Shown here one piece after another: positions 8,799 to 14,630 of a stretch of DNA of 37,073 bases. The notes under the pieces are model-generated. The model worked only from the letters and a program-made list of their open reading frames with translations. It did not search any database and was not told the DNA's origin. Origin of the DNA: Syntrophobacterales bacterium (GTDB taxonomy: Bacteria > Desulfobacterota > Syntrophia > Syntrophales > UBA8958). The stretch covers positions 1 to 37,073 of the forward strand of contig JAGPFL010000010.1 of NCBI GenBank assembly GCA_018056545.1. The letters run 5' to 3'. Positions within the stretch are counted from its first letter, which is position 1; each line of letters starts with the position of its first letter. Position numbers and translations under genes: made by a program.

Positions 8799-9338
8799 AT
8801 GACGCGTGAGGAAAAAATCGAGGAAATCCGCCAACGTGCCCGGAAAAACTTTTCTCTGGGTTATAATTGCGCGGAATGTGTGACGGAGGCCGTTTTAACC
8901 TTGGTGGACACGGGCTTGCCGCCGGAGGTGAAAAAAGTGGCCACAGGCTTCGGCGGCGGCATCGGACTTTACGGGGATACCTGCGGCGCCGTCGTCGGTG
9001 CGGTTCTGGCCGTCAGCGCTGTTCACGGGAGAAGCAGCCTTCCCGAGGGGGAGGGAAAGGAAGCGGCTATGAAGTCCAAGGAACAGCTTTACGGCAAACC
9101 AGGCCTCTATCGGCTGTTCAACATCATTCCCAATCGCTTTCACGATAAATACGGCAAGACCCTTTGCCGGGACTTTACCACCCAATGGCAGAATACCTGG
9201 CTTTGCCGGGATCACGCCCTTTTCTGTCGCGATCTGATCACCGAGGCGGCGGGCATAGCGGCGGAACTGATCCTTTCCGATCGGGACGAGCTGGCCTCCC
9301 GGCCCTTTGCCAAGAATGTCGAAAACCTGAAAGACTAA
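8799..9338 (+). CDS. C_GCAxxG_C_C family redox-active protein
   Basis: 179 residues with the full family pattern: NCAECV near residue 25, GFGGGIGLYGDTCGAVVGAVLA (about 49-70, the GDTCGA core giving the family name), then CRDF and WLCRDHALFCRDL in the C-terminal third. The regularly placed cysteines are thought to form disulfides or bind a metal; the biochemical role is not established. Its start has GAGGAGGGG 6 nt upstream. It is the first gene of a tight set whose next member, 15 nt downstream, is a UGA-containing disulfide reductase, so a thiol/selenol electron-transfer partnership is a reasonable guess. No clear promoter was identified in the 179-nt gap upstream, which does hold an AT-rich segment with the palindrome ATACGTAT near 8672. 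Confidence 0.85.
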   Translation: MTREEKIEEIRQRARKNFSLGYNCAECVTEAVLTLVDTGLPPEVKKVATGFGGGIGLYGDTCGAVVGAVLAVSAVHGRSSLPEGEGKEAAMKSKEQLYGKPGLYRLFNIIPNRFHDKYGKTLCRDFTTQWQNTWLCRDHALFCRDLITEAAGIAAELILSDRDELASRPFAKNVENLKD

Positions 9339-9353
9339 AGGGAGGTCATGGTT

Positions 9354-10688
9354 ATGAGTCAAAAATTAGTAGTTATCGGCGGTGGGGCGGCGGGTCCCTC
9401 AACGGCGGCGGAGGCCAAGCGGAGAAACAGGAACCTCGAGGTCACCATGATTGAGGCGGGCGATTTTGTCTCTTATGCCGCTTGACCCATGCCTTATTAC
9501 ATCGGCGATGTAATCAAGGATTATAGAAAGTTGGTGATACGGACACCGGAAGATTTTCAGAAAACGGGGATGAGCGTGAGGATCAAGACCCGTGTCGAGG
9601 ACATCGATCCGCAAAAAGGACTGGTCCGGCTGTCCGATGGCACAAGTGTTCCCTATGATATCCTTGTCATGGCCACCGGTGCCGGCGCCGTCCGCCTTGA
9701 TATCCCCGGTGCGGATCTGGAAGGGGTTTTCGTCCTGAGAAATCTTACCGACGCCCTCCAACTCAAAGCCTACCTGAATGAGAAGAACTGCCGCAAGGCG
9801 GTCCTCATCGGCGGCGGCTACATCGGCATGGAGATGTGCGAGGCCATGAGGAACCTGGGAATCCAGACAACGGTTATCGATTTGCTGCCCCGTCCGGTCG
9901 TTCGCTGGGACGAGGAATTCGCAAAGACGGTTCTGGACGAGTTGGGGAAACATGAGGTGCAATTCCAGGGAGAAACCAGACCCCTGGCGATTGAAACCGG
10001 CAAGGAATGCCGGTTGGTGCTGAAAACCGATAAAGGGGATTTGGATGCCGACGTGATCCTGATGGGAGTGGGAACCCGTCGCGAGGTGTCGCTGGCGAAG
10101 GCCGCCGGTCTGGAAATGGGCGCCAGTGGGGCCATCAAGGTCGATTTCCGTCAACAGACGTCCCGGGAGGGAATATATGCCGTCGGGGACTGCTGCGAGG
10201 TCTTTCACAAGGTTGCCGGCTGCTGGGTTTATTTCCCCCTGGGTGATATCGCCAACAAACAGGGCCGGGTTGCCGGACAGAATATCGGGGGCCGCCCGGC
10301 GGAATTTCCCGGCATTGTCGGCGCCCAATCCTTCAAGGTCTTCGACCTGGAAGTCGGAGCCACGGGTCTCACGGAAGAAGAGGCCACCCAGTATGGATTT
10401 CAGCCCCTCAGCATAATGATCCAGGGGCTTCCCGTCGGCAGGCCCATGGCTCGGGGTGAAAAACTGGGGGTGAAACTGGTGGCCGACAGAACCACGGGAA
10501 AACTCCTCGGCGGCCAGTGTGTCGGCGCCAAGGGCGCCATCCAGAGGATCTTTGCCCTGTCCGTTGCCCTCTGGTCGGGATTGACGGCGGAGGAGGTCGG
10601 ATACCTGGATCTCCCCTATGCCCCGCCCTTCGGCGGCGCCTGGGACGCCATCCATGTGGCGGCCCAAGAAATCGTGAAGAAATTGTAG
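9354..10688 (+). CDS. predicted selenoprotein: FAD/NAD(P)-dependent CoA-disulfide reductase/NADH oxidase-like, in-frame UGA as Sec44
   Basis: Read through the TGA at 9483-9485, this frame gives one 444-residue protein. It starts at ATG 9354 (GGAGG 8 nt upstream). Residues 5-20 are the FAD-binding VVIGGGAAGPSTAAE, about 150-180 the NAD(P) Rossmann motif LIGGGYIGMEM, a second FAD motif YAVGDCCEV follows, and the C-terminal dimer domain ends with the family motif DLPYAPPFGGAWDAI. Codon 44 is TGA in the context SYAA-UGA-PMPYYIGD, exactly where CoA-disulfide reductases and related NADH oxidases carry their single redox-active Cys (SYxxCGxPYY). A hairpin at 9492-9519 just after the TGA has the form of a bacterial SECIS element. 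So UGA most likely encodes selenocysteine at the active site. If read as a stop, the product would be a useless 43-residue piece. A mutated Cys codon cannot be fully excluded. Confidence 0.85.
9483..9519 (+). promoter_or_regulatory. UGA (Sec) codon plus SECIS-like hairpin
   Basis: TGA 9483-9485 is followed by a stem with left arm 9492-9503 and right arm 9507-9519: 12 base pairs with one bulged C at 9515 and a GGC loop (9504-9506). The apical loop begins 18 nt after the UGA and has G in its first two positions, both as expected for bacterial SECIS elements read by SelB. The hairpin lies wholly inside coding sequence, as bacterial SECIS must. Pairing was read directly; function is inferred. Confidence 0.8.
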
Positions 10689-10755: not shown

Positions 10756-11082
10756 GTGGCGGCAAAAGAAACGACATCGGGGGTGGAAACGATCGCTGTG
10801 AAGGTCGGCGGAAAAATCAAAGGGACATATCGGGGACTGGCAGGAACCTTCGCCGGTTTTGCCGATTCCTGTCTGCGCAGAAAGGAGCTGCCGGGGTTTT
10901 GTCTGGAGGACCTCATTTTGGAGGCCGAGCGACAGGACAGAAACCTGCTTTTGCGGCTGAAGGGGAAACGGACTCCAAAGAAAATAATGGAGATCATGGA
11001 CATATCCCTGGCGAACATGGTGGCCTTTCCCGGCGCCCCGGGAGAAGCGGAATGTTTCATTGAAGTCGAATCTGAAAAATGA
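10756..11082 (+). CDS. unrecognised 108-residue protein in the redox cluster
   Basis: I do not recognise a family. It starts with GTG at 10756 after AAGGAGG 11 nt upstream, 67 nt behind the selenoprotein gene and 17 nt ahead of the dehydratase-like gene, so it belongs to the same transcript. The protein is soluble and has no signal peptide. It has two cysteines (in FADSCLRRKELPGFC), a basic stretch KGKRTPKKI near residue 70 and an acidic end (GEAECFIEVESEK). Codon use is like the neighbours. Its fixed position between two redox enzymes suggests a small partner or chaperone, but nothing in the sequence proves this. Confidence 0.7.
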   Translation: MAAKETTSGVETIAVKVGGKIKGTYRGLAGTFAGFADSCLRRKELPGFCLEDLILEAERQDRNLLLRLKGKRTPKKIMEIMDISLANMVAFPGAPGEAECFIEVESEK

Positions 11083-11099
11083 GGAAAAAGGAGGAGATT

Positions 11100-12548
11100 A
11101 TGGCTTTAAAAACGGCACAGGAGTATCTGGACAGCATCAGAAAGATGAAACCGCGGGTCTATATCGGCGGCAAGTGGGTTACGAATCTGCTGGATCATCC
11201 CGTTACGAAGTCCATGGTCGTGGCCAACTCGGCGATTTATGGGTTGGCGGAAGATGAGAAAAATAAAGAGGTCATGGTGGCGACCTCTCATCTGACGGGC
11301 GAACCGATCAACCGTAATCTAAATGTAGCCAGAAATATTCACGATCTGGATATGCGTCAGGAGATGGCGCTCCTTACCAGCCAGACCGTGGGGACCTGTA
11401 ATTATCGCTGTGTAGGTTGCGATGCCCTCAATAGCCTTGCCGCCACCACCTGGGAGATGGACCGTGATTTGGGCACCAACTATAATGAACGATTCAACAA
11501 ATGGCTCGCCTACGCCCAGGCCAACGATTTGGCCGTCTCCGGAGCCATCACCGACGCCAAGGGGGATCGGAAGAAGCGCCCCTCCCAGCAGGATGATATC
11601 GATACCTTTATACATCTTGTCGAAAAACGGGAAGACGGGATCGTGGTCCGGGGAATCAGGGTCAGCCAGAGCGGCGCCATCGGCTCCCATGAGACGCTGG
11701 TGCTTCCCGGAGGCGCCCTGAAAGAAGGGGAGGAGAAATTCGCCCTGGCCTTCGCCGTACAGAACAGCGTCCCGGGTCTGTCTTATATCTGCCAGTACAA
11801 CGCCTATTCGGCGGAAAGGGAATTTTGCGACAGTGAGGACGAACTTGGCAACCCCCTCTACGGTCAACGGGAGACCTCGACGATGTATTTCGACAACGTC
11901 TTCATCCCTTGGGAGCGGGTTTTCCTTTGCGGCGAAACAAAGTATTGCGGAAAAATGGTGACGCGTTTCGCCAAGGCCCACCGTATGAACTGCGGCGGCG
12001 CCTGCAAGGTCGGCTTCGCCGATCTCATCATCGGCGGCGCCATGCTGGCGGCGGAATACATAGGCGTGGAGAAGGTTCCCCACATACAGGAAAAGATCGT
12101 GGACATGGTCCGTTTCAGCGAAACCTCCCATGCCTGCGCCATTGCCGCGGCAATGCGGGGCCGGGAGGAACCCAAAGGGTCGGGGGTATATCTGCCCGAT
12201 GATCTCTTCGGGAACGCCGCTAAACTAAACATTGCCCACGGCTTCTGGGAGATCATCAAGAACGCCGGCGATATCGGCGGCGGACTCGTGGTGACCATGC
12301 CGAGGATGAAGGATCTGGATGATCCGGAGGTGGGCCCCGTCCTGAAGAAGGCCTTTTCGGCGGTGGCGCCTGCGGACAAGCGCATGAAGGTCGCCAAGTT
12401 CCTCCAGCATTGGTCGGCGGGTCTTCATGGGCCGGGGACATGGCACGGGGCCGGGGCCCCCCAGACCCAGCGTTTCATGTTCACCGTGCTGACGGATTTT
12501 GAGGCCAAAAAGAAGATGGCCAAGAAACTCATGGGGATGAAAGACTGA
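11100..12548 (+). CDS. 4-hydroxybutyryl-CoA dehydratase-like FAD/[4Fe-4S] protein (HpaB superfamily)
   Basis: 482 residues, start ATG 11100 with GGAGGAG upstream (an earlier in-frame ATG at 11079 overlaps the preceding gene and is less likely). Similar over its length to AbfD, which dehydrates 4-hydroxybutyryl-CoA through a ketyl radical using FAD and a [4Fe-4S] cluster. Shared points are ATSHLTGEPINR, the cluster Cys pair C100 and C104 (TCNYRCVGCDAL), GAITDAKGDR with the conserved Thr, REDGIVVRG, the active-site Glu near 258, YFDNVFIPWERVFLC, and WHGAGAPQTQR with flavin-side residues. The third and fourth cluster ligands fall in AHRMNCGGACKVG: His294 then Cys302, one residue farther apart than in AbfD, and the AbfD Tyr of this loop is Cys298 here. 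So the fold is clear but the substrate may differ. A terminator follows at 12584-12611. Confidence 0.82.
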   Translation: MALKTAQEYLDSIRKMKPRVYIGGKWVTNLLDHPVTKSMVVANSAIYGLAEDEKNKEVMVATSHLTGEPINRNLNVARNIHDLDMRQEMALLTSQTVGTCNYRCVGCDALNSLAATTWEMDRDLGTNYNERFNKWLAYAQANDLAVSGAITDAKGDRKKRPSQQDDIDTFIHLVEKREDGIVVRGIRVSQSGAIGSHETLVLPGGALKEGEEKFALAFAVQNSVPGLSYICQYNAYSAEREFCDSEDELGNPLYGQRETSTMYFDNVFIPWERVFLCGETKYCGKMVTRFAKAHRMNCGGACKVGFADLIIGGAMLAAEYIGVEKVPHIQEKIVDMVRFSETSHACAIAAAMRGREEPKGSGVYLPDDLFGNAAKLNIAHGFWEIIKNAGDIGGGLVVTMPRMKDLDDPEVGPVLKKAFSAVAPADKRMKVAKFLQHWSAGLHGPGTWHGAGAPQTQRFMFTVLTDFEAKKKMAKKLMGMKD

Positions 12549-12947: not shown

Positions 12948-14630
12948 ATGTACTTTGCAGCGGAAGTGCTGGCAGCATCCAGCACGATGAGGCAGAAGTG
13001 GGAGGACGAGGTCCGCAAGGTCGTCGCCAAGAATCCCGATCAGAAACCGCGCTGGTCCACCGTGTCCGATTTGGAAATCAAGCGCCTCTACGGTCCGGAA
13101 GACATCAAGGATATGGATTTCGAGAGAGACATCGGCTATCCCGGTCAATATCCTTATCTCCGGGGGAACCAGCCGACGGGGTATCGGGGAAAATACTGGA
13201 CCTTTCGGATGTTTTCCGGCATGGGCGATGCGAAGACGACCAACGAACGCTGGCATCTGCTACTGAAAGAGGGGCAGACCGGGTTGAGTACGGCCTTCGA
13301 TTTCCCCACGTTGATGGGCTACGACACGGACTCTCCCAAAGCCAGGGGGGAATGCGGGAAGTGCGGCGTCGCCATCGACACCCTGGAAGATTTCATGCAG
13401 TTGGTGGACGGGATTCCCATGGATCGGGTTACGACCTCCATGACGATCAATCCTCCGGCGACGGCCCTGTGGGCGATGTATTGCGCCGCGGCGGAGATCA
13501 AGGGGATTCCCCTGACGAAGATCGGCGGGACGATCCAGAACGACATGTTGAAAGAGTTCATCGCCCAGAAGACCCTGATGTGTCCGCCCGATCCTTCGGT
13601 CAAACTGATCAGCGACACCGTGGAATTCGGGACGAAATACGTCCCCCGGTGGAACACCATCAGCATCAGCGGGTACCATATCCGTGAGGCCGGGGCGACG
13701 GCGGTGCAGGAGTTGGCCTTCACCCTCCGGGACGGCATGGAGTACGTGGAAGACGTCATCCGCCGCAAAGGTCTGGATGTGGACGAGTTCGCCCCGCGGC
13801 TGTCCTTCTTCTTCAATTCCCACATCGATTTCTTCGAAGAGATCGCCAAGATGCGGGCGGCCCGGCGGATCTGGGCGAAGGCCATGCGGGAGCGTTACAA
13901 ATCCAAGGATCCCCGTTCATGGTGGATGCGTTTCCATACCCAGACGGCGGGATGTTCCCTGACGGCGCAACAGCCTTACAACAACGTCATCCGGACGGCG
14001 ACGGAGGCCCTGGCGGCCGTGTTGGGCGGGACCCAGTCGCTGCACACAAACTCCCTGGACGAAGTTCTCTGCCTGCCTTCGGATCACGCCGTGCAGATCG
14101 CCCTGCGGACCCAGCAGATCATCGCCGAGGAAACCGGAGTGGCCAACACCATCGATCCCCTGGCGGGTTCCTACTTTGTCGAGGCCCTGACCAACGAGAT
14201 GGAAGAGAAGGCCTGGGAGTACATCCACAAGATCGACGAGATGGGCGGCATGGTGGCGGCCATCGAGAAGGGCTTCCCCCAGTTGGAGATCTCCGACGCC
14301 TCCTATCTCTTCCAGCGACAGGTCGATGCGGGCGAGAAGATCATGATCGGTATCAACAAGTACGTCTCCGCCGAGGCGACCCCCATCCCCCTGGTCGAGA
14401 TCGACGATTCCGTGGAGCTTCAGCAGATCGAGCGCCTGAAAGCAGTGCGTCGTAAACGGGACAACAAGGCGGTGAAGAAGGCCCTGGACGACATCAAGAA
14501 CGCCTGCAAGAAGGGTGACAATGTCATGCCCTATTGCATCGAGGCGGTGAAGAGCCTGGCTTCCGTTCAGGAGATCTGCGACGTATATCGGGAAGTTTAC
14601 GGTGAATACCGGGATCCGGGATTGTACTAA
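12948..14630 (+). CDS. B12-dependent acyl-CoA mutase large subunit, isobutyryl-CoA mutase-like
   Basis: 560 residues, the TIM-barrel substrate subunit of the methylmalonyl-CoA mutase family without the C-terminal B12 domain, which is supplied by the next gene. Conserved catalytic residues are in place: Gln197 (GTIQND), Tyr243-His244 (ISISGYH) and the Arg of RLSFFFNSHIDFFEE. The two residues that set specificity differ from methylmalonyl-CoA mutase. The Tyr89 position is Phe89 (YWTFRMFSG), and the Arg207 position, which holds the free carboxylate, is Gln207 (EFIAQKT). Phe/Gln is the pair known for isobutyryl-CoA mutases. So the enzyme probably interconverts isobutyryl- and butyryl-CoA or a similar non-carboxylated acyl-CoA, not methylmalonyl-CoA. 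TAAGGAGGG precedes the start. Family certain, substrate inferred. Confidence 0.9.
   Translation: MYFAAEVLAASSTMRQKWEDEVRKVVAKNPDQKPRWSTVSDLEIKRLYGPEDIKDMDFERDIGYPGQYPYLRGNQPTGYRGKYWTFRMFSGMGDAKTTNERWHLLLKEGQTGLSTAFDFPTLMGYDTDSPKARGECGKCGVAIDTLEDFMQLVDGIPMDRVTTSMTINPPATALWAMYCAAAEIKGIPLTKIGGTIQNDMLKEFIAQKTLMCPPDPSVKLISDTVEFGTKYVPRWNTISISGYHIREAGATAVQELAFTLRDGMEYVEDVIRRKGLDVDEFAPRLSFFFNSHIDFFEEIAKMRAARRIWAKAMRERYKSKDPRSWWMRFHTQTAGCSLTAQQPYNNVIRTATEALAAVLGGTQSLHTNSLDEVLCLPSDHAVQIALRTQQIIAEETGVANTIDPLAGSYFVEALTNEMEEKAWEYIHKIDEMGGMVAAIEKGFPQLEISDASYLFQRQVDAGEKIMIGINKYVSAEATPIPLVEIDDSVELQQIERLKAVRRKRDNKAVKKALDDIKNACKKGDNVMPYCIEAVKSLASVQEICDVYREVYGEYRDPGLY

Follow-up and report, generated by a model that had tools for sequence, protein, structure and literature searches.

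A CoA-disulfide reductase/NADH oxidase-like flavoprotein with a very likely selenocysteine at its catalytic position in a Syntrophobacterales bacterium

A selenocysteine (Sec) form of the CoA-disulfide reductase/NADH oxidase-like flavoproteins is already known as a prediction. An 'NADH oxidase' of Geobacter metallireducens was predicted to be a selenoprotein in 2006 (PMC1794560), and a Sec-containing 'NADH oxidase' was seen once in ocean metagenomes in 2008 (PMC2398784). A 2022 catalogue lists WP_011365774.1 as an FAD-dependent oxidoreductase (CoA-disulfide reductase) (PMC9312934), and a 2026 review gives the same family and accession with the motif UGxP (PMC13188914); the G. metallireducens genome paper makes no mention of this selenoprotein (PMC2700814). 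We found no biochemical characterisation of the Sec form in the open-licence literature. This agrees with the initial annotation of the locus studied here, which knew of no characterised member and expected that relatives may appear in surveys; the family has been catalogued since 2006, so the Sec form is not unrecorded. The persulfide reductase Npsr belongs to the same fold family and uses the same catalytic Cys chemistry via bound CoA, and it carries at its C-terminus a rhodanese domain some 100 aa long (PMC7969121).

We analysed a 37,073-nt stretch of a Syntrophobacterales genome (contig JAGPFL010000010.1, hereafter the window). The flavoprotein locus has the following features.

9340 to 9345, + strand: Shine-Dalgarno-like GGGAGG, 8 nt before the ATG at 9354 (read from the sequence)
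9354 to 10688, + strand: predicted Sec-containing CoA-disulfide reductase/NADH oxidase-like flavoprotein, 444 aa, stop TAG (profile match end to end, PDB alignments, Pfam PF07992/PF02852)
9483 to 9485, + strand: UGA codon 44, read as Sec, at the catalytic Cys position (homologue TGA counts, codon alignment)
9496 to 9514, + strand: putative SECIS hairpin, stem AUUACAUC/GAUGUAAU, apical loop GGC at 9504 to 9506 (fold, consensus fold, covariation)

When the TGA is read as a residue, positions 9354-10688 encode a single 444-aa protein, MSQKLVVIGGGAAG...SYAA-U-PMPYYIGD...YAPPFGGAWDAIHVAAQEIVKKL, and codon 44 is the sole in-frame UGA of this frame. One profile runs through both sides of the UGA (NF007123, residues 4-437, E 4.5e-112; TIGR03385, E 3.2e-110), as do solved structures, among them the best PDB match, the NADH oxidase 6ruz of Thermus thermophilus (E 3e-89), and the P. 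horikoshii CoA-disulfide reductase (E 2e-75). The catalytic Cys of these structures, in the segments VSYGACGLPY and VSHAPCGIPY, lines up with codon 44. The initial annotation had described an open frame around this TGA, a single family on both sides and a TGA at the family's catalytic Cys, and all of this was borne out, coordinates included. It had also expected automatic annotation to split the gene into 43 and 399 residues. Under the standard code, the 399-aa part (9489-10688), which starts at the ATG two codons past the TGA, is indeed among the listed ORFs of at least 80 aa; it is the only one from this gene, and no second ORF of that length is listed. Without the N-terminal FAD-binding GxGxxG strand, this shorter product, judged by its fold family, could not be a working enzyme on its own. 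An AlphaFold2 model built from 15 close sequences has a mean pLDDT of 62.8 and is poor (below 50) in the active-site stretch 38-54.

Comparison with the locus L046 revealed that the stretches before and after the TGA are both under purifying selection, with 2, 2 and 16 differences at codon positions 1, 2 and 3 in the former and 46, 32 and 176 in the latter. We searched 395 genomes of the phylum (E <= 1e-100) and obtained 40 matches, of which 31 have one in-frame TGA and nine have none; the latter carry TGT or TGC at codon 44. A scan of genome contigs added 14 loci with an intact N-terminal part (68-85% identity), and every one of them (14/14) has TGA at codon 44. A fifteenth, shorter locus (L060) was not interpretable and was set aside together with three C-terminal fragments. 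When 49 Sec and 9 Cys sequences were aligned, the TGA fell at codon 44 in all 49 Sec rows, and all non-UGA homologues examined have Cys there. Because 31 of the 40 homologues share one in-frame TGA and its position is the same in 49 of 49 rows, the interruption should be neither a sequencing error nor chance. TGA homologues share as little as about 41% protein identity with the window, which makes the UGA old. An in-frame UGA at a catalytic Cys position, conserved or exchanged for Cys, is the pattern by which bacterial selenoproteins are recognised. Genome G030 has two copies of the flavoprotein (L068 and L069), one with Sec and one with Cys, as though the gene had been duplicated and Sec then exchanged for Cys.

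The putative SECIS hairpin, of 8-9 bp, has its apical loop 18 nt after the UGA and is extended in the window sequence by CCUU/AAGG (9492-9495/9516-9519). It folds at -10.8 kcal/mol (z -2.34). Taken alone, the window hairpin is modest and not decisive: 5 in 200 shuffled sequences fold equally well, and 8 unbroken pairs also arise in 11.5% of synonymous recodings of the window sequence. The weight therefore rests on comparison. Downstream of the UGA, the homologues share the consensus UAYUAYAUC-GGN-GAUGUARUN. Among 39 sequences, 8 of the 9 pairs are kept almost without exception and 3 of the 9 show compensatory changes on both sides; for example, UA is replaced by CG in nine sequences, where Val54 stands for Ile54 and the Tyr48 codon is changed alongside. 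The covariation score exceeded 500 of 500 shuffles and all slid versions of the hairpin, in sequences that are related and not independent, so that these shuffle counts are not probabilities. The RNAalifold consensus fold found the same 8 pairs. An Rfam search of the window returned nothing at the gathering score.

The joint loss of stem and UGA is the stronger argument. In a larger set, 46 of the 48 Sec rows of the window branch have the complete window-type stem; among 21 Cys rows, a single one does. The codon for Val53 follows this pattern: it is GTA in 46/49 Sec rows and in 0/9 Cys rows, and GTA is rare in the genes of the window (14 of 231 Val codons). One Cys homologue that retains the window-type stem (L121, loop GCG) possibly holds a remnant SECIS, or the stem is there by chance.

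The window comes from an 82%-complete assembly of 1.85 Mb in 130 contigs, which contains selB, tRNA-Sec (selC, 77.4 bits) and selD. The last gene (L009, 1501-2430) is itself a selenoprotein gene, with an in-frame UGA at the active site (HGAGUACKIGP). selA was not found in this incomplete assembly; of 15 related genomes, 14 have it. The one without it, G206, is a 97%-complete genome from the same family as the window. Its homologue has TGT at codon 44 and a broken hairpin, and the genome has no tRNA-Sec above the background of ordinary tRNAs (best 47.6 bits, versus 70-78 in the others) and no selB over the cut-off. In G206, therefore, Cys at codon 44 goes with loss of the Sec trait. A one-genus group of genomes from the same order has Cys at codon 44 yet keeps the machinery. 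In genome G000, selB over the curated cut-off was detected on two contigs, C92 and C61 (L003 and L004; 386 and 258 bits), reflecting either a second SelB or a binning mixture.

The initial annotation had proposed to look for Cys or TGA at codon 44 of homologues, for a bacterial SECIS and for selA, selB, selC and selD, and it would have given up the Sec reading if the machinery were missing or if the codon turned out to be TGT or TGC. Relatives keep the TGA, with 31 of the 40 having TGA and 9 TGT or TGC; a covarying hairpin with a G in its apical loop lies directly downstream of it; and selA alone is missing, from an incomplete assembly, the other three genes being found. Together with the TGT, lost machinery and broken hairpin of G206, these results uphold its central proposal of Sec at the catalytic Cys position.

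The window protein has the motif UPMP at the Sec, and its relatives have UPxP, UExP or UDxP. The catalogued WP_011365774.1 belongs to the same family, has Sec at the corresponding catalytic Cys (UxxP) and comes from the Deltaproteobacteria in the wide sense; on motifs, the only feature compared, it is UGxP where the window is UPMP. One distant Sec row (L094, in G093) has UGMP, and a search of the phylum with it revealed a second branch of 16 genomes with one TGA, mostly of the UGxP type. The hairpin of this branch, AUCGGCA-GGGU-UGUCGAU, has its loop 22 nt after the UGA and is built from different bases of the codons homologous to those in the window hairpin, so that the window-branch hairpin is 4 nt closer to the UGA. 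The UGxP-type stem also covaries. Within its own branch, 13 of the 16 rows have it complete, against none of 48 window-branch rows, and the window-type stem is complete in none of the 16 UGxP-branch rows. The UGxP type of the phylum (P0003, 42% identical) thus differs from the window in the distance of its hairpin and in the loop GGGU, and it has kept the YYPG segment discussed below. Genome G271 carries both Sec subfamilies (L067 and L107), each with its own hairpin register.

An unrooted tree separates the window and UGxP branches with support of 100/100 and places further Cys rows on the UGxP side. The AU test rejects a single clade of all Sec rows; we dropped this as evidence for two origins of Sec, as Cys rows nested in the Sec branches would cause the rejection anyway. 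Sec may have arisen twice, or the hairpin may have moved. Only tentatively, and with more doubt than belief, do we propose the combined reading that Sec was gained at least twice at the same catalytic position, with hairpins in different registers, and that the window's subfamily acts on a substrate other than CoA disulfide. The UPxP/UExP/UDxP proteins form a distinct subfamily that is widespread in anaerobic bacteria and has a hairpin register of its own, and which we put forward as new. We found no description of this subfamily, its hairpin or its wide distribution in the open-licence literature, which is weak evidence of novelty.

By sequence, the protein is a pyridine-nucleotide-disulfide oxidoreductase that uses FAD and NAD(P) and has a single catalytic position. 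The CoA-disulfide reductases (TIGR03385/NF007123; Pyrococcus, Bacillus, Staphylococcus) share with it the whole-length profile match, the catalytic Cys position, the FAD and NAD(P) domains and the C-terminal YAPPF..WD segment, and the window protein has the single catalytic Cys/Sec of their SxxxC/UxxPY segment. The window protein differs from them in having Sec for Cys, in scoring below the curated cut-offs (375 versus 458 bits and 368.9 versus 578.8 bits) and in replacing the HYYPG segment of the P. horikoshii CoA-disulfide reductase and the T. thermophilus NADH oxidase by GRPMARG in the window branch. Because of the low scores and the replaced segment, the name CoA-disulfide reductase should be taken as provisional, and the substrate may differ; the family assignment made in the initial annotation holds, and CoA-disulfide reductase activity is a candidate function. 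Although 6ruz is the best PDB sequence match, it is a Cys-type enzyme. Unlike Npsr, the window protein ends after the dimerisation domain and has no rhodanese domain. The residues Arg23, Asn301, Lys302 and Tyr422 are invariant or nearly so in the alignment. The window has GDCCE where the two aligned structures have GDVAE, and we considered the vicinal Cys pair of GDCC (280-281) as a resolving partner for Sec. The pair does not seem to follow Sec clearly, because Cys280 is found in all Sec rows and also in 9/9 Cys rows, and Cys281 in 46/49 Sec rows and also in 5/9 Cys rows.

The Sec gene lies among the following genes.

8799 to 9338, + strand: C_GCAxxG_C_C redox protein, Cys form (PF09719, 2e-22; TIGR01909 over cut-off)
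10756 to 11082, + strand: 108-aa protein without a Pfam match (neighbourhood cluster 4)
11079 to 12548, + strand: 4-hydroxybutyryl-CoA dehydratase (AbfD)-type protein (1u8v, E 4e-111; cluster 1, 12 loci)

The C_GCAxxG_C_C gene is 15 nt upstream of the Sec gene and adjoins it in 14 of the loci examined; the gene for the 108-aa protein adjoins it on the other side, between the flavoprotein and AbfD-type genes, in 8 loci. This layout, with the Sec gene between the C_GCAxxG_C_C gene and the 108-aa and AbfD-type genes, is that of the Syntrophaceae. The CxxxC and H...C Fe-S ligand positions of 1u8v are aligned in the AbfD-type protein, with one residue inserted between His and Cys. A methylmalonyl-CoA mutase gene (12948-14630) follows the AbfD-type gene in several loci. 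Other branches have different neighbours, among them thioredoxin reductase, lgt, TerC, a Fur-family regulator and rubrerythrin-domain proteins, and the thioredoxin reductase, Fur-family and rubrerythrin-domain genes are as expected beside a redox-protection gene.

We conclude with high confidence that codon 44 is decoded as Sec via SelB and tRNA-Sec, in an FAD/NAD(P)H disulfide oxidoreductase of the single-catalytic-Cys type; on comparative evidence, the protein is very likely a selenoprotein and its Sec very likely sits at the catalytic site. If the TGA were a true stop or a sequencing error, the locus would be a pseudogene or encode separate 43- and 399-residue proteins. Standard translation does yield the 399-aa ORF with its own ATG, but that product would lack the FAD-binding N-terminus, the same TGA recurs across dozens of genomes whose proteins have 41-85% identity, differences concentrate at the third codon position on both sides of it, and the hairpin covaries, which makes a genuine stop or an error highly improbable. 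Equally little credence goes to a UGA read as another residue, be it Trp or Cys by suppression or in a recoded genome. Read-through by itself names no residue, and Cys is what the non-UGA homologues have. Against such decoding, the genes of the window freely end in TGA, the genome has tRNA-Sec, SelB and a Sec-type SelD, a SECIS-type hairpin accompanies the UGA, and the relative without Sec machinery has TGT.

A further alternative concerns function and is compatible with Sec: the window's subfamily could be an oxidase/peroxidase, or an electron-transfer partner of the redox protein and the AbfD-type enzyme. The scores under the CoA-disulfide reductase cut-offs and the change from YYPG to GRPMARG speak for such a job, as do NADH oxidases and peroxidases among the PDB relatives and the conservation of the C_GCAxxG_C_C, 108-aa and AbfD-type neighbours in Syntrophaceae. 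The near-invariance of Arg23, Asn301, Lys302 and Tyr422 speaks against it, and neighbours differ between branches, so the gene does not depend on AbfD. On balance this different job is somewhat less likely than not.

For the Sec protein itself, a general role in thiol/persulfide redox protection fits best, as far as we can infer. The hairpin at 9496-9514 would direct decoding of UGA 44 by the bacterial SelB/tRNA-Sec route, giving one of the enzymes that work with a single catalytic Cys, as do CoA-disulfide reductase, NADH oxidase/peroxidase and persulfide reductase. By analogy with the family, NAD(P)H would reduce FAD, which would reduce the redox centre at Sec44; once Sec44 had attacked a small disulfide, persulfide or oxidant, the resulting selenenyl intermediate would be resolved through the flavin. 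The likely role is thus NAD(P)H/FAD-dependent reduction of such a compound via Sec44. The part of which we are least sure is the substrate; the most likely one is the disulfide or persulfide of a low-molecular-weight thiol, whose reduction would serve to protect anaerobic CoA-thioester metabolism in redox terms.

A single Geobacter genome and a single ocean read were the first catalogued sources of the family; in the broad set of related anaerobes surveyed here, Sec is the usual form, and automatic annotation can break off each such gene at the UGA. With its Cys exchanges, its two hairpin registers and, in G206, the matching loss of hairpin and Sec machinery, the family offers a good natural experiment on the gain and loss of Sec at one catalytic site.
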